The notes under the pieces are model-generated. The model was given only the letters and a program-made list of their open reading frames with translations. It was not told the origin of the DNA and ran no database searches. A DNA stretch of 64,000 nt from Dermatophagoides farinae (Eukaryota; Arthropoda; Arachnida; Sarcoptiformes; Pyroglyphidae). Positions 40,411 to 58,085 of this stretch are shown one piece after another. Position 1 is the first letter of the stretch, and every line of letters starts with the position of its first letter. The stretch is taken from contig NC_134678.1 of assembly GCF_024713945.1 (NCBI RefSeq), forward strand, positions 496,001-560,000, given 5' to 3'. The position numbers and the translations under genes were made by a program.

Positions 40411-43384
40411 AATATAAAAAAATTATCGGAAATTCCGAGATATACAGCCAGCTGACCTTTGTCGGCTGGTTGTTGTTGTTGTTGCTGTTGTCACTCTCTT
40501 TCACCCCGTTTTCCTTTTGACATATGACATTTCCAATGATGATGAGTTGGTTTTACATTTCTCCCAAAAAAAAACACGATCCTAAAAACAATTAATTTGA
40601 CACCGAAACTAAAGAAGAACATATGAACATAGTGTATATTGAATGTTTGTAAAAACATGAAACAATAATATATCGACTCACGCACGCGGTGTGGTCATAA
40701 GTCATCAATAAGTTCTATATACATCCATCATCGTCATCATCGTCATCATAAACCAAAGGAAAAAAATGTCATCTACGTGATGGTGTCAATGACAAACTTA
40801 TGAAAATTTGGTGTGTATAAACCGAAAAGAAAATATGAAAATTTTTTTTTTTTACTTGATGGTTTGTTTTGTCGCCGGCTAGTCTCGAAGATGAAACATT
40901 ATCTGTCTAGACATGTTTTTGTTGTCGGTTTTGGTGGTGGTGGTGGTCAAGTTTTTCATTTCATTTTTTTCAAAAATTAATAATTTCTTCTTCTTCCAAT
41001 GATGATGATCATCATCATGGAGAAAAAAAAAACAGAAAAACTCTTTGTTTTAAAATAGTGGCGCCAAATATGAATTACGAATGAGTGAGCGAGTGAGTGA
41101 GTGTAAGCGGAATATCTGTCGAAAATTTGATATAACATAAAATTTCATTTGTCATTGTCTGTCATCATCATCATCATCTTGATATTATTGATAAATGAAA
41201 TAAACTATAAAAAAATGGAAAAGATGAAAATTTCATTTTTTTTACTAATTTAAAATTTACATGTCATGTGTGTGTGTGTGATTCATAAACGAATTCAAAA
41301 TCGAACATTTGTTGTTGTTGTCTTCCGATGATCACAATGATGTGATGGCTATATCTACATGACATGATCTCAATGTTGATGATGATGATGTGAAAACAAT
41401 CGTTCTTTTTTTCTGATCGACCACTCGGTTGACATTTGATTCGAATCACGAAAAAAAAACTTGATTTTTTATGTTTAACCAAAAAAAAAAAAAAAAAAAA
41501 ACAAGCCATCCATATTTCCATATTCTAATGACAAAATTGTCAATTGACATCTATGAATTTTGACATTCGATTATTCATCATCGTCATTGATTTGAAATTC
41601 AGCTATAACAAAACAAAAGTAAGGACATTTCATTTCATGAAAACAAATCTTCATACTATTCCGAAATCATTACAGAATCATAAAGATTGATGCCGACTTA
41701 TTATTATTTTAATGAATCTCATGGAATTCATCATCATCAATGATTAGATCAAAAAAAGAATCATATGGAGAAATAGCCGACTTTTAATTATTTAGTCAAA
41801 GAAAAAATGGCGAACTATTCAATTCTCCATCATCATTTTCATTTCTAAATATTATTTATTCTCAAACGTCCAAGATGATGATATTATCATGGTGATGATA
41901 TTGTATGTATATGGCGGTAAACGATAAAGAACTGGTGGGTTTTTTTTTCGTTACTGTTATAAACAAACATCTGGATCTCAGAGAATGAAAGCGGCGAAAA
42001 AATGGTTCGGTTTTTTTTTCGTTGCACAAGATTCTTTATCATCATTATAATAATAATGATGATGTCGACAACGAAATTTGTCTATATAACAGAAAATTTT
42101 TACCAAATCGTCATCATCATGGTTGTCCTCGTTTTTCGTCGGAACGAATTCGATCCAAACGAGAATGAGAGAGACAGAAAAACGATGTCCATGTGATGAT
42201 AGAATATTGCCGCAACAATAATGATGATGAACTTGAAGACATTGTTGAATTGAAAATGGGTGTTGTCGTGTGAAAAAGCAAAAAAAAAATTTTGAAATTC
42301 TATTACGACAACAACAACAACAACTAAAACATCATCATCATCGTCATTTTTACATCAAATAATTAGTTTGCTAAGTATATAAGTTGCTACTATCTCAAGA
42401 AATGGAAAAAAACTTGTACATGTATGTACTGCTGCTGCTGTTATTTACTAATCACTATCCAACAACAAACAACAAACAACAACGAAAAGAAAAAAATTCG
42501 CTTAATTATTTGAATGAATGAATGAATGGATGGCTTTGGCTGGTTTGGTTTGTGCGAACCCGAACAAACAACAAACAAACAAACAAACAAACAAAAAGAA
42601 TGAAAATGAAAAGATTCGACATTTGATGATGATGAAAGATGTTCCCATTGTATGTTTTGTTGTACCGTTTTTATGCAGACAACAACAAGACAATTCTTTC
42701 AGTTTTTTTTTATTCTTGCGGCAATTCCTTCTTCTTCTTCTATACTTCTATAGTTGACATTTTTTGTTTTTGAATACGATATTGTATAACGGCTATACAA
42801 TCATGGTCGTCGTCATCATCATCATCATCATCATCAAGAAGGTAAGTGTCTTTTACATCTTTGTGTTGTGTGAATTTTTTTTTCTTTGATAATGGTGTTT
42901 GGTGGTGATGATAAAATGACTTGTCATCGGCACTTATTGCTTCGTTGAACATTTCAAAAAAAAAAAAGAATCTTCATCATCATCACACAGACAGACATTG
43001 TTTGTTGTTCATCATCATTGGCAAAGAATTGTAATAATTCTTAAAGTTTTGTTGTTATTTTTATAATAATTCAAAACTAAAAAAAAAAAAATTATTATTA
43101 ACCACAAACAAACCATAAACATCATAATATAATATATTTATAGCCACCTTTTCCCCTTACTTATATTTCATTTTTTTTCTTTCTTCTCACTTAACAGATT
43201 CTAAGATTTTTTTTCTTTTTCTCGTTGCTCTTAATTATCATGAATTTTTTCTAATTTATGAATCAAGTAATAGAGGTGCTGCTTTTCAAGCAGAAGCAAA
43301 AAGAAAAAAAAGAGGCCACTATAAATGATTTACTTTTGTTTTCCATTGGATTTGGGCCTCAATAGAATTGTTGTTGTGATTTGT

Positions 43385-43469
43385 AATTTGGTCAGGGAAA
43401 AACAACAAAAAAAACCAAACGATCATCGGTGTCATTTGGTTTTTGTTTTTGTTTTTCCTGACCAAATTC
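43385..43469. repeat. Long near-perfect inverted repeat
   Basis: The left arm begins AATTTGGTCAGGGAAAAACA and ends AAACCAAA (43385-43419). The right arm begins TTTGGTTTTTG and ends CCTGACCAAATT (about 43435-43468). The arms are complementary over about 33 bases with only a few mismatches, around a loop of about 15 bases. Such a fold could be a small hairpin RNA, a miniature element or a cruciform. Confidence 0.75.
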
Positions 43470-44611
43470 AAATGTTCAATGTTCAACCAGCGACTTGTAT
43501 TTGAATATCATCAACAAATGACTGATGTTGTGACATTCTGAATTTAGTGGTTGGTTTTTGTTTTAGAGAGAGAAAGAGAGAGAGAGAGAGTGTGAAATAA
43601 ATTTCACCATTGTCCACACATGAATCTGAATGAATCGTTCATTGTGTGTGTGTGAGTATGTTTTACTTATGGTCAGTGTTGGATTACAATTTTTTCGATG
43701 TTTAGTTTGTTCAATTTTTTCTTCTTTTTTTTGACATTTAGATTATCAAATTGTTAATGTTATTGGCAATATGTATGAGTGTGTGTGTAAAAGCCATTTC
43801 GGTTGATAGATTGGTTTTTTTTTTTTTTTTTGCTTTTTAGTATACTCGATGTATATTTGGTTTATGTGTGTGTGTGTGTGTGTGGTAAATGTTCATTTTG
43901 GAAAAAAAACGACAATTTCAAAATCCATTTTGTTCTGTTTAATGCATGCTTGTGCCTCAACATGCACACACAAAAAAAAACTTGATCATTAGTGATGACT
44001 ACACAAAGGAAAATCATCATCATCATTTATTTGAAAATACAGAAAAAAAAAATTCAATCGACCATTGAAAATCTTTTAATGTGTGTGTGTGTGTGTGTCT
44101 GTTTTGATTATACCCAAAAAAATTTTTTTTTTTATTTGAAATTCATATTTGTTTTGTTGTTAGTGAAAGATGATTATAACGCATCACCAATATATTATAG
44201 TTATTATTTAGTCTCACTTTACATATAAATGTCAGAAGTAGAAATTTGTTTTGTTTTGTTTTTTATTTTTTCATTGAATTCAGCAAAAAAAAAAAAACAA
44301 TTATTCAATTAATGGATGATTTTTTTTCGGTGTTTTGTGGCTGGCCCACACACACACAGACACACACAAACAGACAAAAGTTACCGATGTATGATGAACA
44401 AAGTTCATTTCAAAACCATGGTTCAAAGACCAAATTGAAGTGATTTTTTTTTGAATTGAATTGAATTGAATTTTGGTTTGTTTTTATCCAAAAATTTTTT
44501 TTTCATCATTCAGGTAAATTTTTGTTTGGTTTATTTCAATCGACCATGGTATATGAACATGATCAAATTTTTTTGTTTTGTCTGTTGGCATTTTCATTCA
44601 TTCGATTTGGT

Positions 44612-50021: not shown

Positions 50022-50423
50022 ATGTATGTATGTATAATCAAAACAAAAAAAGAAAACATTCATTGTATAAAAAAAAAATTTCATTTAAAAAAACGAAAAA
50101 TAAACGTCATTTATTTATTAGTCATCATCATCGATCTTCGAATCGAATGATGAATTTTTGTTTCACTTTCACAATTGAAACTATAGTGTGTAAAGTAGCA
50201 CCATCTGGTCTATTAGTAAATGGACAAGTTCTAAACAAAACAAAACGAAATCAAAATCATCATATGATGATTGCAGCCATAGACAGAGCATTCGCTAGAT
50301 TGTTGTCACTTCGAAATTATCATTCACATCACTGTCATATAACGACTATAACATAGCAGAAGATTTAGTTTTCTTTTTCTCCAATTTGAATTACCAATTG
50401 AATTTTTTTTATTACTATTAATC
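50022..50423. other. Intergenic, TAF7 - scramblase 1
   Basis: 402 bases with the TAF7 3' UTR and the scramblase leader. From about 50287 onward it is part of the duplicated unit: it matches 51996-52127 up to the second gene's ATG. Confidence 0.5.
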
Positions 50424-51930
50424 ATGTATAATCCAAAAGAGTAAGTTATTGATTTGTTTTTTTCCAATGATTTTGGATTAACAATCGATTTGTTTGATTT
50501 CGAAATTTTATTAGCCAAAATTCTCCTGGATATGTGATGAATCATCAGACAATTGGTTATCCAGCTCCAGTAACAATTGGCTATAATAATAATATGCAAC
50601 CACAACAGCCACAAATGGCCGTTGTTGTTTATCCACCATCACCACCGCAACAAATTGAACAGCCAATGATGCAACAACCAGCTCCAGTTAATTTTTATCC
50701 ACCACCAATGGCACCACAACAAGGTATATAATGTGATATGAATAATTAAAATTTTTTTTTTGCTAATTTTGTTTTCTTTCCTCTATCAACTTATTCAGTT
50801 CCATTTGGACCATATTCCCTTCCAAATGTACCTCGTGGTTTGGAAATTCTGTTGACACTTGATCAATTGATTATTGAACAACAAGTTGAAATGTTGGAAG
50901 GTAAAAATTTCAGTTTGATTGATTGTTGACGTATATTTAAAGTTAAAATTTTTCTTTTCTTCTAAAATTGTAGCATTCATTGGTTATGAAACCAATAACA
51001 AGTATATTGTTAAAAATTTAAATGGACAACATTTGTATTTCGCTGCTGAAGGTATTATTGCATTATTGGATTGAATTCGATTTTTATCTAATTTCATTTT
51101 AACAATTATTTACTCTAGAAAATGATTTATGTACACGAAATTGTCTTGGTGAAGTTCGTCCATTCATTATGCGATTATATGATAATAATCGGAATGAAAT
51201 ATTACGATTGGATCGTCCTTGGCGTTGTACTAGTTGCCTTTGTCCATGTTTCTTACAGGTTTGGTCTAAAAAATATAAAAAATGCCATTTAATCTGAATT
51301 TAATATTTTTATTGAACAGGAATTAAACGTGTATAGTGGTACACAGAAATTGGGATCAATTCGACAAGAATGGTCCATTTTTTATCCAATATTCAGTATA
51401 TTGAATTCAGCTGGTCAAAAAGTTTTACATATTGAAGGACCATTGATTACATTTTCTTGTGGTGGTGATATCGAATTCAATGTTCTTTCGAATGATGGTG
51501 AAACTAAAGTTGGCAAAATCAGTAAACAATGGAGTGGATTGGCCAGAGAAATGTTTACCGATGCTGATCGTTTTGGTATTCAATTTCCTAATGACTTGGA
51601 TGTAACGATTAAAGCTGTTTTATTGGGTGCCACATTTTTGATTGTAAGTATTGAGATTTTGATCTAATTGATCTAATTAGAATCTAATTTTATTTTGATC
51701 AATATTTCACAGGATTACATGTTTTTCGAAAAAGGTCACAAATAATTATTGTTTTCGTTGACGTTTATGTTGCTATTATTGCCTCTGTTGATGGTATTGA
51801 TCTTTATATAATTTGTTCCTAAACGAATCTCTGTATTTTGTCTCCTTAAGTCACATTCATGATGAATTTGATCTTTTTTCCTTTTACCAAAAAAAAAACT
51901 TGACCAAATTTCAAATAAAATTTGATATTA
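50287..51930. repeat. Tandem duplication, unit 1 (scramblase A)
   Basis: Begins at AGCATTCG before the scramblase A leader and ends after TTTCAAATAAAAT behind its stop codon. It matches unit 2 (51996-53640) over leader, all exons and introns, and about 180 bases of 3' flank. Divergence looks like roughly 10 percent in exons and more in flanks. Confidence 0.85.
50424..51745 (+). CDS. PLSCR: Phospholipid scramblase, copy A
   Basis: Calcium-responsive membrane protein of the scramblase family (Pfam Scramblase). Seven exons, 50424-50440, 50515-50723, 50799-50900, 50974-51051, 51119-51258, 51320-51643 and 51713-51745, give exactly 300 residues. The N-terminus is Pro/Gln/Tyr/Met-rich as in vertebrate PLSCRs. 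The core includes RGLEILLTLDQLIIEQQVEM, GYETNNKYIVKNLNGQHLYF, CTRNCLGEVRPF and the Cys cluster CTSCLCPC (palmitoylation type), then GSIRQEWSIFYP, VGKISKQWSGLAREMFTDAD, RFGIQFPNDLDV (calcium-loop region) and KAVLLGATFLIDYMFFE. All splice sites are plain. Followed by a degraded RAD51 scrap and copy B. Confidence 0.95.
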
Positions 51931-51988
51931 AAAGATTTACAAGAAAATGTTCACCATACAATTGAATCGATTGCCTGTACTCCACGTA
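51924..51988 (+). pseudogene. Relic of RAD51 exon 2
   Basis: About 64 bases that align with 57032-57095, inside exon 2 of the intact RAD51 gene (GATATTAAAA through CCATACAATTGAA to CTCCACGTA), with fewer than ten differences. It has no neighbouring RAD51 exons, is out of any gene context, and sits exactly at the junction of the two scramblase units. Same orientation as RAD51. Confidence 0.85.
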
Positions 51989-51995
51989 GGTGGAA

Positions 51996-53640
51996 AGCAT
52001 TCGTTATAATGTTGTCACTTTGAAATTATCATTTAAATCACTGTCATATAAAGGCCATATCAAAAGATTATAATTTCTTTTATTCCTATTTGGATAACCA
52101 TTTGAGTTTTTTTGTTATTAATTAATCATGTATGATCCAAAAGAGTAAGTTATTGATTTGTTTTTTCCAATGATTTTGGATTAACAAACGATTAGTTTGA
52201 TTTTGAAATTTTATTAGCCAAAATTCTACTGGATATATTCTTTTAAGTTAGATATCTTTTCTACATATATCATATATATATAATGAATCATTAGACAATT
52301 GGTTATCCAGCTCCAGTAACAACTGGCTATAATAATAATAATATGAACCCGCAACAATCGCAAATGACCGGTGTTGTTTATCCACCATCATCACCGCAAC
52401 AAACTGGACAACCAATGATGCAACAACCAGCTTCAGTTAATTTTCATCCACCATCAATGGTACCACAACAAGGTATATGATAGGATATGAATAATTTAAT
52501 TAAATTTTTTTTTCTAATTTTATTTCCTTCCCCTCCGTCAACTTATTCAATTCCATTTGGACCATCTTCAGTTCCAAATGTCTCGCCAGGCTTGGGAATT
52601 CTGTCGACACTTGATCAATTGATTATTGAACAACAAGTTGAAATGTTGGAAGGTAAAAGTTTCAGTTTGATTGATTGTTGACGTATATTTAAAGTTGAAA
52701 TTTTTTTTCTTCTAAAATTGTAGTATTCACTGGTTTTGAAACCAATAACAAGTATACTGTTAAAAATTTAAATGGACAACATTTGTGTTATGCTGCTGAA
52801 GGTATTATTGCATTATTAGATTGAATTCGATTTTTATCTAATTTCATTTCAATATTTATTTACTCTAGAAAATGATTTATGGACACTAAATTATTTTGGT
52901 AAAATTCGTCCATTCACTATGCGATTATATGATTATCAGCGGAATGAAATATTACGAATGAATCGTCCTTTGCGTTGTACTAGTTGCCTTTGTCCATGTT
53001 TCTTACAGGTTTGGTCTGAAGAAAAAATGCAATTTAATCACAATTCAATATTTTTATTAAACAGGAATTAAGTGTCTATAGTGGCGCACAGAAATTGGGA
53101 TCAATTCGACAAGAATGGTCCATTTTTTATCCAATATTCAGTATATTGAATTCAGCTGGTGGAAAAGTTTTACATATTCAAGGACCATTGCTTACATTTT
53201 CTTGTTGTGGTGATGTCGAATTCACCATTCTTTCGAATGATGGTGGAACTGAAGTTGGCAAAATTAGTAAACAATGGAATGGATTAGCCCAAGAAATGCT
53301 TACCGATGCTGATCGTTTTGGTATTCAATTTCCGAATAATTTGGATGTAGCGATTAAAGCTGTTTTATTGGGTGCCACATTTTTGATTGTAAGAATTGAG
53401 ATGTTAATACGTAATAGTATTCTAATTTTATTTTGATCAATATTTCACAGGATTACATGTTTTTCGAAAAAAGTCACAAATAATTATTGTTTTCGTTGAC
53501 TTTTTGGATGGTATTGATATTTATTTATATATAATTTATTTCTAAACGAATCGCTGTATTTTGCCTCCTTAAGTCACATTTATAATCACAACGACTTTTT
53601 TCCTTTTACCAAAAAAAAAATTTGACCAACTTTCAAATAA
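51996..53640. repeat. Tandem duplication, unit 2 (scramblase B)
   Basis: Second copy of the 1.65 kb scramblase unit, direct orientation. It departs from unit 1 by an insertion near 52240-52280, a moved acceptor in front of exon 3 and scattered substitutions. Confidence 0.85.
52128..53483 (+). CDS. Phospholipid scramblase, copy B (front end altered)
   Basis: Duplicate of the upstream scramblase. Exons 3 to 7 (52572-52652, 52724-52801, 52869-53008, 53065-53388, 53451-53483) keep frame and plain splice sites: GLGILSTLDQLIIEQQVEML, GFETNNKYTVKNLNGQ, CTSCLCPC, SIRQEWSIFYP, DADRFGIQFPNNLDV, DYMFFEKSHK. The first exon (52128-52144) is kept, but exon 2 carries an AT-rich insertion and an in-frame stop after TGYILLS, and a second TAG after MNH. 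The Met in MNPQQSQMTG (near 52343) could start a shorter protein. The old exon 3 acceptor is CAA instead of CAG; a new CAG 21 bases downstream keeps the frame at the cost of seven residues. CTRNC of copy A is WTLNY. It is either a gene with a new start or an early pseudogene. Confidence 0.7.
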
Positions 53641-53661
53641 AATTCAAAGAGAATTTGATGT

Positions 53662-53843
53662 TAATCCAATGATGTTTTACATTTTCATTTCCTTTGTAAT
53701 TAATTTTAAAGTTAAATAAAAAAATTGAAAAATCAAAAAAAATGAAATTTGAAATTATCTCTCGACTATTTCGACCGTTTGTAAGCATTTTCGCTCGAAA
53801 TAGTCATTAAATCATTTGAATTCGCAGCGTAAATTTTTTTTTT
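53662..53843 (+). repeat. Direct repeat, copy 1 of RAD51 upstream flank
   Basis: From TAATCCAATGATG to the T-run near 53840 it matches 56514-56693, directly before RAD51, with about 10 percent differences. It contains a perfect 11-base inverted repeat, GACTATTTCGA (53764-53774) and TCGAAATAGTC (53795-53805). Confidence 0.9.
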
Positions 53844-54259
53844 GCACTGAGCAAAAAGTTAGCAGGCTAAACTTCAAAGTTATATATTAACCTCCATCAA
53901 AGAATGGTAAACTTCATTTCTAATTGGAGCCGCAACAAACTCTACTCTCTTTACGCTAAAGTGAAACACAAACACACACACTCTTTCTGTATCAATCATA
54001 ATCATCTCATCGTTCATATTTGTATCACTTATTTCTTTTAGGCTAAAATATCATTAAACTAAATCAAACCATTCTATCAGATGATGATCTGCATTCATTT
54101 TGTTTCCATATTCAATATATAATAAAATGACAATTTGAAAACAAAAAATTTTCTCAATTTCTTATCAAGTATCGATTTATTTCAAAATGATGATCAACAA
54201 AAACAAAAAACTCAAAACACTATCATTTAAAATGATTGATGAACCAATAAAAAGGAAAA

Positions 54260-54576
54260 ATATCAAAGTTTCCAGACCAAGAAAACCATGAACCAATAAA
54301 TCATTGAAATTATTCGAACAACAGGCAAAAATAGCAGAGTACGAATCAATAAAAAATTATTGCAGATCGTTTAGTTCTTTATAACCATAATGGTGCTTAG
54401 AAAATTGCCTATAATTCCGCCTGAAAAATCGAACATGAATTGGCCAAACGAAATTTTAAGATATCAACCGGATGACTAGAGTTAGCAACAAGAATTACAA
54501 ACAAAGAAGCACATCCAAACACGACAACAGCAAATTTTGAACCATCAGTATAAATATGAAAATCATGATTAAACAT
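54260..54576 (-). mobile_element. Non-LTR retrotransposon (LINE) relic, RNase H part
   Basis: On the minus strand, HIYTDGSKFAVVVFG (TDGSK codons at 54535-54549) is followed by ANSCSIFQAEL (about 54412-54441) and, in a different frame, by DSYSAIFACCSNN (from 54347 down). These are the three acidic motifs (D, E, D) of the RNase H domain that many LINEs carry after reverse transcriptase, and CSIFQAEL is typical of LINE rather than other RNase H. Stops follow AEL and the frame changes, so it is dead. No reverse transcriptase, tail or target-site duplication is recognisable. Confidence 0.7.
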
Positions 54577-54967
54577 TTATCCCATGTAAATTTTTATTTT
54601 GCACGTTTTTTTTCTGTGCGCATATGCGTTTTGCGATGATCAGAAAAAAAATTTAACAAAGTCATTAATAATGATTGGTAAGTATCATCGATTTATTGAT
54701 GAAAATCATTTGATCGATAAATTGATTTCAACACAAAACAGATTATATTTCATTTCATTTCTATAGAGAATAATATTGGAAATTCATTAATTTTCTTGGC
54801 TAGAATTCATTCTTTGACATAAAACGATTTTTGAATTGATGATACAAAAAAAAATTGACAATAATGAAGTATCCTAATGAGTAAAGATAGTTTAAATAGT
54901 GCAAGAACGGAAAAAAAATTCCACATTCGTTTGTCGAATTCAGACTAAGAAAAATCTGAATGTGAAA

Positions 54968-56477
54968 ATGTTGTTCAAAATCAAAACATTTCTCTACGAT
55001 GCAATCAAACATATTGTTGAAGAAAATGGAACCGCACGATATCATCTATTACATAATGTTGATATTTCGCTTTATCTTTATTGGTTCATACGAGCATTAT
55101 TCATTTCATTAATCTATATAGATCCAGAACGATTTCCATTATATCGATATGATTATATGTCACTTTTTTTTGGGAACATCGAAAAATTCTTAATAAATTC
55201 TTTATGATCATACTAATATTGTTTACATTGATTGGATTTTGGTTTATCAAAACATTTTTCTTTAACCATGTGGATGAACTTTGTTTTCAGACTTTTTATG
55301 ACTGTATCGTATATAATACGGATCAATATTATAAAAGTCGAGATACGGATGAAAATATTGCAAAGAAATTGTCCAAACGTTTAGAGGATTATCAACAGCG
55401 ATTTGCTCGTGATCATAGTTTATTATCGAAAATGATTCCACGATTGTTGAATCATTGGTTCAGAATTCGTGTTTGGATCGATTCGTGGTTGCATTTGGAT
55501 CGTGTCGATAGGAATTTGTTTGAAAATCGAAATAAAATGCGTTTGTTTCCCAATGCAAATCGTAAAAGTCGAACACATGTTTTGTTATTCGTATTGATTA
55601 TTGATTACTGCAATCATATTATTCACATTTTTATTTGTAAGTATCATGTTTTGTTTTTGTTCGTATTTTAATTTAATTTAATTTTCCAATTTCTCTTTCT
55701 ATGGATAAAGTGCTCCTCAATATCATCAGTGGTATTAAGATTATTTCACAATTTTTACAATATGAATTCGTAAAAAATTCCTCGATCATGAAATTCAGCA
55801 TAATGATTGAAGTAATATTATTCATACATAATTCATTGGCAATTAATCAATGTGCAATGCTATTGTACGGTACAATATGGGCAACATATTATGTGTTTCG
55901 TAATCAATTGGCTCACATTAATCAAAATTTTATGAAAATTTTAAGAAATTCACGACAAAGAAAACCAATCAATATGACAGTGTTAAAAGAACTGCGATTC
56001 ATTCATATTGAACATAATACATTGGCATATTATGTATTACAGAGTGATAAATATACATTGAGCCGACCGCTTTACTATTTTGCATTGGTTAGCATACCGA
56101 TTAATGTATTATTTATGTGTGAATTAATCGTCGAAGATATACCGGCGCAAACACAATTTGTATTTATAGTGATGTCATCGGTACATGCCATTACTGGTCT
56201 TATTCCATTCATAACTTTAGCACTTGTTTCCAGTGCTTTTCATAAAATCAAAGATTATATACCAGCTATGCAGCTACGATTGAATCGTTCGACACATATT
56301 CGAATGAAATTGAAATATGATGATCTCTATGAACGTTTGATGTTTGGTAAAAAAATTGCCTTTACATTTGGCTATCTCGGCGATTTGACGTACCGGGGGT
56401 TATTCGAAGCATTTCTTGGCTATTTTGCCGCTTTCTTTCTCATCATGGGATTCTATATGAGAGAACATTCAACATGA
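54968..56477 (+). CDS. Chemoreceptor-like (gustatory receptor-type) membrane protein, frameshifted
   Basis: Probable multi-pass plasma-membrane receptor. Two exons, 54968-55636 and 55711-56477, would give about 478 residues with several long hydrophobic helices (ILFTLIGFWFIKTFFF, HVLLFVLIIDYCNHIIHIFI, MIEVILFIHNSL, AMLLYGTIWATYYVF, FALVSIPINVLFMCEL, IMSSVHAIT-like segment) and a last helix in GYLGDLTYRGLFEAFLGYF, at the position of the TY motif of arthropod gustatory receptors. The helix count, length and single-intron structure fit that superfamily, but I see no strong family motif. Exon 1 changes frame by one base between 54968-55207 and 55204 onward. The likely site is the run of eight T at 55164-55171. 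Either a young pseudogene or a sequence error. Confidence 0.6.
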
Positions 56478-56834
56478 ATAATTATGATTCGATCAAATGA
56501 TGATGATTCTGCATAATCCAATGATGTTTTACATTTTAATTTCCTTTGTGATTAATTTTAAAGTTGAATAAAAAATTGAAAAATAAAAAAAATGAAATTT
56601 GAAATTATTGCTCGACTATCTCGACAGTTTGTAAGCATTTTCGGTCGAAATAGTCATTGAATCATTCGAATTCGCGCCGTAAATTTTTTTTTCTGCTCTC
56701 TCGAACGGTGATGACATCGTTTTTTTCGAGTTTATTTTTGTCAATTATTCCAAATATTTATTCATTTTTATTTCCATCTGTTTTGTTTAACGACAATTTT
56801 TTTGAAATTCAAATTTTCTCAACATAAAAAAACA
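56478..56834. promoter_or_regulatory. RAD51 upstream region
   Basis: Gap between the chemoreceptor-like stop and the RAD51 ATG, including repeat copy 2 (56514-56693). As the region directly before RAD51 it should hold the promoter. Confidence 0.4.
56514..56693 (+). repeat. Direct repeat, copy 2, directly upstream of RAD51
   Basis: Partner of 53662-53843. The inner inverted repeat (GACTATCTCGA and TCGAAATAGTC) has one mismatch here. Confidence 0.9.
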
Positions 56835-58085
56835 ATGAGTTCGGTCAAAGAAAAATCAAAAGTTCAACAAGTACAAGATGTTGTTGTTGATAAAAACGCT
56901 GAAGATGAAGGCGAATTTGAAACCAGTTTTATGCATATACAAAAATTAGAAGTTTGTATTTTTGAGATTTATGATGGCAAAATTCATTTCATTCATTTTT
57001 TTTTATTTAGGGTTGTGGTATACAAGCACAGGATATTAAAAAATTGCAAGAAAATGGTTACCATACAATTGAAGCGATTGCCTATACTCCACGTAAAGCG
57101 TTGGAAAAAATCAAAGGAATTAGTGAGCAAAAAGCCGAAAAAATTCTTGTAAGTCTATTAATAAAAAAATAATTTTTTTATTGTTTAAAATAATTGACCA
57201 ATTTATTCTTGTTTAGAGTGCTGCTATAAAAATGGTACCTATGGGCTTTTCTACGGCAACCGAATATCATATGAAACGTTCGGAACTCGTCATGATAACT
57301 ACTGGTTCTAAAGAATTAGATGCCCTGCTTAAAGGTTTGGACATAAATTTTTTTTCAATTTGTATAATTAATTCTAAACAAAAATTATTATTTCACATAA
57401 AGGCGGTATTGAAACGGGCTCGATTACCGAGTTATTTGGTGAATTCCGTACTGGAAAATCTCAGATTTGTCATATGCTTGCCGTAACATGCCAATTACCG
57501 ATTGACATGGGCGGTGCCGAAGGAAAATGTCTATTCATCGATACAGAAGGAACATTTCGGCCAGAACGTTTTCTTGCCATTGCAAAACGGTATAAGATGG
57601 ATGAGAACAATTGCTTGGAGGGTATTGCATATGCAAGAGCATATAACAGTGATCATCAGACACAATTATTAATTGATGCCGCATCAATGATGTCAAATTC
57701 TCGTTATGCATTAATGATTGTTGATTCGGCTACAGCTTTATATCGTACAGATTATAATGGCCGTTCAGAATTAGCTGCTCGTCAAATGCATCTAGCAAGA
57801 TTTTTGCGTATGCTACAAAGATTAGCCGATGAATTTGGTATTGCTGTGGTTATTACCAATCAAGTTGTTGCAAATGTCGATGCAAGTGCTATGTTTAGTT
57901 CGGATAATAAAAAACCGATTGGTGGCCATATAGTGGCACATGCATCAACAACACGTTTATATCTAAAAAAAGGAAAAGGCGATAATCGTGTTTGCCGTAT
58001 TTACGACTCACCAAATTTACCTGAAGGTGATGCTACATTTTCAATCCATAATGATGGTATCAGTGATCCTAATGATAATGATTAA
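56835..58085 (+). CDS. RAD51: RAD51 recombinase
   Basis: Strand-exchange ATPase of homologous recombination. Four exons, 56835-56951, 57011-57148, 57217-57334 and 57403-58085, give 351 residues (human 339). The N-terminal helix-hairpin domain includes [40 protein letters not shown] and KI. The core has [15 protein letters not shown] (Walker A GEFRTGKS), [52 protein letters not shown] (Walker B), [31 protein letters not shown] and [20 protein letters not shown]. The N-terminal 25 residues are a charged extension. An upstream in-frame Met at 56802 exists, but MSSVKEK at 56835 is the better start. A copy of part of exon 2 lies at 51924-51988. Confidence 0.98.

Follow-up and report, generated by a model that had tools for sequence, protein, structure and literature searches.

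How did a short piece of RAD51 come to lie between two tandem copies of a scramblase gene, and what does its position say about the origin of the second copy? The locus in question belongs to a 64-kb window (the whole stretch of DNA analysed) from the mite Dermatophagoides farinae. We consider the chance slightly better than even that this fragment, here called the scrap, is a templated insertion made by break repair at the junction of the scramblase tandem duplication.

The anatomy of the locus can be seen directly. Along the + strand, scramblase unit 1 is followed by the RAD51 scrap, scramblase unit 2, P', a 2.67-kb block, P and RAD51, as follows.

50287-51922, + strand: scramblase unit 1, with coding exons at 50424-51745 (300 aa)
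51924-51988, + strand: RAD51 exon-2 scrap, 89.2% identical to 57032-57095, with a possible continuation at 51989-51995
51996-53644, + strand: scramblase unit 2, 85.2% identical to unit 1
53662-53842, + strand: P', which repeats part of the RAD51 5' flank immediately after scramblase unit 2, 92.3% identical to 56514-56692
53843-56513, + strand: block between P' and P, containing one gene, which ends at 56477
56514-56692, + strand: P, in the RAD51 5' flank, 321 to 143 bp ahead of the RAD51 start
56835-58085, + strand: RAD51 gene, four exons, 351 aa; exon 2 is 57011-57148 and the scrap donor 57032-57095

The two genes that frame the locus are well formed. In scramblase unit 1, every exon border is AG/GT and the product scores 268.4 bits against the Pfam Scramblase family. 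The RAD51 frame is open for 351 codons over its four exons, its introns are bordered by AG and GT, and its product scores 424.6 bits against Pfam Rad51; the best PDB match is "RAD51 homolog 1" (E 9e-156), with PDB chains of RAD51 outscoring those of DMC1 and RadA. The scramblase units are arranged head-to-tail and are 85.2% identical over 1687 columns, a size within the 0.1-10 kb class of tandem duplications. A masked self-comparison of the 64 kb (low-complexity masking, E 1e-8) returned the scramblase pair, the P pair, the scrap/RAD51 pair and, as a fourth item, a palindrome-like stretch at 43379-43473. All three direct repeats found at this threshold are located at the scramblase/RAD51 locus. 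The unmasked search gave 25 direct families, and among the 20 largest, those away from the locus are simple-sequence runs (CAT, CAA, T/A tracts).

A sequence-only reading of this DNA had proposed that the stretch between the scramblases matches exon 2 of an intact downstream RAD51, and this is confirmed. The scrap (65 nt) and its source (64 nt) are on the same strand and agree at 58 of 65 columns, with 6 mismatches and one gap (E 4.8e-19, searched against the 64-kb window), and the frame of RAD51 itself is intact. Among 1000 dinucleotide shuffles of the scrap, the best reached 36.5 bits compared with 83.3 observed, so that none came near. Besides the scrap itself and RAD51, there is no other copy in the 64 kb, the best further matches having E 0.009; for the dispersed repeat named by the earlier reading as a refuting alternative, no further copy is seen within this window. 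A chance match, or a repeat dispersed in the 64 kb, is ruled out by the E value, the shuffles and the lack of a further copy. That the arrangement as a whole is an assembly artefact or due to chance is most improbable, with nothing specific in its favour and the same E value and 0/1000 shuffles against it; false duplication of alleles is further opposed by copies that are 8-14% apart in their noncoding parts, which is much for alleles.

The scrap is also a decaying fragment, as five of its six substitutions in the RAD51 frame are nonsynonymous (K to N, G to V, Y to H, A to S and Y to C; the K to N change adjoins the gap, and its placement depends on the alignment) and the one-base gap disrupts the frame. 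These same features rule out a coding scrap. The pattern of decay looks neutral, and the scrap appears to have drifted without coding constraint, as neutral DNA does.

The scramblase matches flank the scrap on both sides, supporting the earlier placement of the scrap at the junction of the tandem duplication. That the units abut the scrap is accurate on the left, where unit 1 ends at 51922, just before it; on the right, seven bases (GGTGGAA) sit between the scrap and the unit 2 leader at AGCATTCG. The 7 or 8 bases that follow the scrap may be further exon 2, reaching up to 57107 past a 4-base deletion. Support for this continuation is modest, with 3.6% of random 8-mers scoring equally (2.6-5.1% over three scoring schemes), and among the six edge extensions tested only this short one stood out. 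At the right junction, RAD51-like GGTGGAAA gives way to the leader AGCATTCG, the two having no more than one base in common.

At the left junction, unit 2 reads TTTCAAATAAAATTCAAAGAGAATTTGATGTTAATCC, the product TTTCAAATAAAATTTGATATTAAAAGATTT and RAD51 CACAGGATATTAAAAAATTG. Microhomology had been suggested here from the likeness of GATATTA and GATGTTA, which is indeed present, at 57032 in RAD51 and at 53657 behind scramblase copy 2; as GAT(A/G)TTAA, it is common to RAD51 and the copy-2 flank at 7 of 8 bases. The scramblase unit match stops at 51922/53644, however, 12 bases short of the motif, and unless copy 1 has lost 11 bases, GATRTTAA does not count as left microhomology. Anchored extension across this 11-base gap gave no support for scramblase homology and remained at chance level, with the fraction of random stretches doing at least as well being 1.0, 0.85 and 1.0.

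In the history that we favour, templated insertion, a chromosome break would have occurred in or near a single ancestral scramblase and been mended by error-prone synthesis for which very short matches served as primers. After leaving the 3' flank of the scramblase, the extending end would have copied 65-76 bases from exon 2 of RAD51 and then been joined to the scramblase leader at AGCATTCG. The outcome would be a tandem duplication of about 1.7 kb, with two scramblases and a RAD51 filler between them, the filler afterwards decaying as neutral DNA. What we infer from the scar is that a break occurred, that polymerase-theta end joining or template-switching replication repair was at work, and that there was a single event. 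Weighing against templated insertion are the conditional status of the left microhomology, the right junction of at most one base and a scrap that is slightly over-diverged.

The earlier reading had offered a different route, in which the duplicated stretch began at the scramblase leader and extended as far as RAD51 exon 2, and copy 1 subsequently lost all of the RAD51 side by deletion except the scrap. The duplication would measure 2.3 kb if the block was absent and 5.1 kb if it was present, and the deletion 0.5 or 3.4 kb. Several features agree with this: the scrap adjoins the copy-2 leader, as expected of a duplication junction; GAT(A/G)TTAA could serve as the microhomology of the deletion; the divergences are compatible with a single age; and tandem duplications that cross gene boundaries and pick up gene fragments are described as common in Drosophila yakuba (PMC5460883). 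The route nevertheless requires two events for the scrap, which templated insertion explains in one step, and therefore needs one more event together with two coincidences. The deletion must end at most 76 bp from the junction, a target that makes up 13% of the available stretch if the block was absent and 2% if it was present, and it must start within about 18 bp of the edge of P' (1.4-7.8%). Moreover, no RAD51 flank or exon 1 is left between copy 1 (51922) and the scrap (51924); as the route's own deletion would account for the missing material, this only lowers its standing. Duplication into RAD51 followed by deletion is thus not established, and we regard it as possible, on the unlikely side.

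Another feature bearing on these histories is a second repeat that the earlier reading overlooked. P' and P form a 181-bp direct repeat (92.3% over 181 columns) that brackets the 2.67-kb block with its additional gene. The scrap donor in RAD51 lies 5.1 kb from the scrap today and 518 bp downstream of the left edge of P. The boundaries of unit 1 and P' are directly seen to be neighbours: in copy-2 coordinates, unit 1 ends 17 bp before P' (53644 compared with 53662), or 3 bp into P' if GATRTTAA is counted. Such closeness would be expected in 1.4% (tolerance 3) to 7.8% (tolerance 19) of placements over the 500 bp from the scramblase stop to the RAD51 start, or in 0.2% to 1.1% over the span from the scramblase stop to the scrap source; these percentages assume independent and uniform breakpoints and are placement figures rather than formal tests, of which the looser are safer. 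The looser tolerance is the conservative choice because the 3-bp version lacks backing from the anchored extension test, and at that tolerance the coincidence is only suggestive.

P' sits at the 3' end of the scramblase, a position consistent with former adjacency of scramblase and RAD51 and to this extent with the earlier proposal of an ancestor with scramblase directly before RAD51. An ancestor ordered scramblase-P-RAD51, into which the block entered either during the same event or at a different time, fits the locus; an ancestor ordered scramblase-block-P-RAD51 fits too. Since P' starts where unit 1 ends, P' and P, and perhaps the block as well, may stem from the same repair episode as the scrap. 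A more extensive reading, that one germline repair event strung together RAD51 exon 2, the second scramblase along with the RAD51 5' flank, and the 2.67-kb gene-bearing segment, strikes us as distinctly doubtful. If true, one stroke would have both duplicated a gene and placed genes in a new neighbourhood, as in the templated-insertion cycles of tumours. More generally, small repeats that adjoin a duplication can help to separate one-event from several-event histories.

The block may instead always have stood between scramblase and RAD51, with the scrap and P' being fillers at either end of the second scramblase copy. Copying of the scramblase would then have run to the same broken end twice, and RAD51 would not have been its immediate neighbour. 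All of the copied DNA is local, and the block gene, which ends at 56477, has its first AATAAA or ATTAAA at 56567, inside P; a signal in that position fits the block and P belonging together. The signal is weak because AATAAA is frequent in AT-rich DNA (30.3% GC here), and run-off would have to bring the second scramblase copy to an end nearly where the first did. We judge an always-present block improbable. The ancestor that it implies nevertheless fits the data, so that the earlier dating of the duplication to a time when RAD51 was the immediate neighbour is not proven.

Comparison of divergences provides a further view of whether these elements could have arisen together. Between the scramblase copies, differences are seen at 32 of 401 sites in introns, 16 of 155 in the 3' flank and 18 of 129 in the 5' flank, giving 66 of 685 noncoding sites; P and P' differ at 12 of 179, and the scrap and RAD51 at 6 of 64. 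None of the comparisons is significant (probabilities of 0.24 for noncoding and P repeat, 0.73 for intron and P repeat, 1.0 for noncoding and scrap, and 0.58 for scrap and P repeat), and the divergences are in this respect compatible with one age. The divergence of the scrap is compatible with the age of the scramblase duplication, its 6/64 not differing significantly from the noncoding 66/685. As RAD51 itself evolves under constraint, 3.2-3.9 differences would be expected in a scrap of equal age, on the assumption that one quarter of RAD51 sites are free, and the six observed exceed this at P 0.10-0.19. These counts allow a single age for scramblase pair, P pair and scrap alike, at low power.

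The state of the second scramblase is mixed. In copy 2 (52128-53483), exon 2 is interrupted by 43 inserted bp that include an in-frame stop, and the exon-3 acceptor is AA, not AG, with a possible in-frame substitute acceptor 21 bases on. Using the copy-1 exon borders from an internal ATG at 52343, however, it retains a frame of 268 aa with a full scramblase domain (251.8 bits compared with 268.4 for copy 1). Exons 4-7 carry no indels in 575 bp, whereas 17 are found in 685 noncoding bp (Fisher 6e-5). From the internal ATG, dN/dS is 0.78 overall, 0.55 in exons 2-3 and 0.98 in exons 4-7, and in 5000 trials of random substitution the frame stays open in 3%, 8% or 18% with 73, 55 or 37 changes, respectively. 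A plain dead gene is accordingly not a clear-cut description, the indel-free exons 4-7 standing against the exon-2 stop and the AA acceptor. As far as the sequence goes, copy 2 may be a gene that is shortened and changes fast, or one released from constraint only recently; it is not plainly a second working gene.

For the gene within the block, our first guess was a chemoreceptor. Against Pfam, no family scored above the cut-off: the first piece gave a sub-threshold DUF2244 match (E 0.33) and the second piece none. The structure model of its product is poor (mean pLDDT 45.7). At 54968-55207, the frame from the ATG at 54968 stops after 79 codons and the following ORF, at 55153, is in a different frame; this mismatch is one of three things, a frame break, a missed intron or an assembly fault.

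Several known systems illustrate how such a locus could be produced. Mutants of C. elegans in helq-1 acquire tandem duplications that range from about 100 bp to 10 kb around a median of about 1 kb; these depend on POLQ-1, and their junctions show microhomology and occasional templated insertions (PMC8654963); in brc-1 and brd-1 worms, loss of polq-1 suppresses tandem duplications (PMC7368036). Polymerase theta is argued in a review to tolerate mismatched microhomologies (PMC13015775), and it has been argued to drive heritable changes in worms, with data that include natural isolates (PMC4490562). The mite locus resembles the products of theta end joining of failed strand-annealing intermediates in helq-1 and brc-1 worms (PMC8654963, PMC7368036) in its size of 1.7 kb, its head-to-tail arrangement and its short filler from nearby. 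Unlike them, it is a fossil, with about 10% noncoding divergence, a putative enzyme and an insecure microhomology, and its filler of 65-76 bp comes from beyond the duplicated segment.

Strings of templated segments are reported at single loci in tumours (PMC7025897) and in human complex insertions (PMC5120786). The tumour cycles similarly string copied segments within one locus and re-replicate the host segment; the mite locus differs in being germline, local and of kilobase scale, and in having a single event that we infer (PMC7025897). Human FoSTeS/MMBIR complex insertions likewise place templated insertions at rearrangement junctions, but these are new or inherited cases with mapped junctions, whereas the mite provides one fossil locus (PMC5120786). 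In Drosophila, tandem duplications that cross gene boundaries carry gene fragments (PMC5460883, PMC4503668). As in the mite, a piece of a neighbouring gene lies at the junction between copies; the whole stretch to the breakpoint is duplicated there, in contrast to the 65-76 bp of neighbour found here (PMC5460883). The mite locus is an example of a known mutational class and a real, well preserved scar. Its value lies in being an old yet readable record of a tandem-duplicating repair error, with donor and junctions visible.

Among the titles and abstract openings listed in a literature search, none concerns this locus, which does not prove that no such paper exists. Rfam returned no RNA family at the gathering score for the whole 64-kb window. 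Perfect palindromes of at least 16 bp number five in the 64 kb, among them one of 18 bp at 50255-50272, 14 bases ahead of the left edge of the scramblase duplication. The palindrome-like stretch at 43379-43473, about 95 bp long and 85.7% self-complementary over 98 columns, is distant from the scramblase/RAD51 locus.

Relatives were also sought in viral and genome contigs. In viral contigs, none of the 29 pattern matches to scramblase exon 6 and none of the 7 to RAD51 exon 4 encodes a relative. In genome contigs, the 83 pattern matches to RAD51 exon 4 yielded two loci, one in a Verrucomicrobiaceae MAG and one in a Lokiarchaeota MAG, neither of which helps with the history of the mite locus. The former (contig L001, 10001-10807) encodes a RAD51-like protein whose best segment is 55% identical (query residues 1-226), and the gene is possibly a eukaryotic contamination of the bin.
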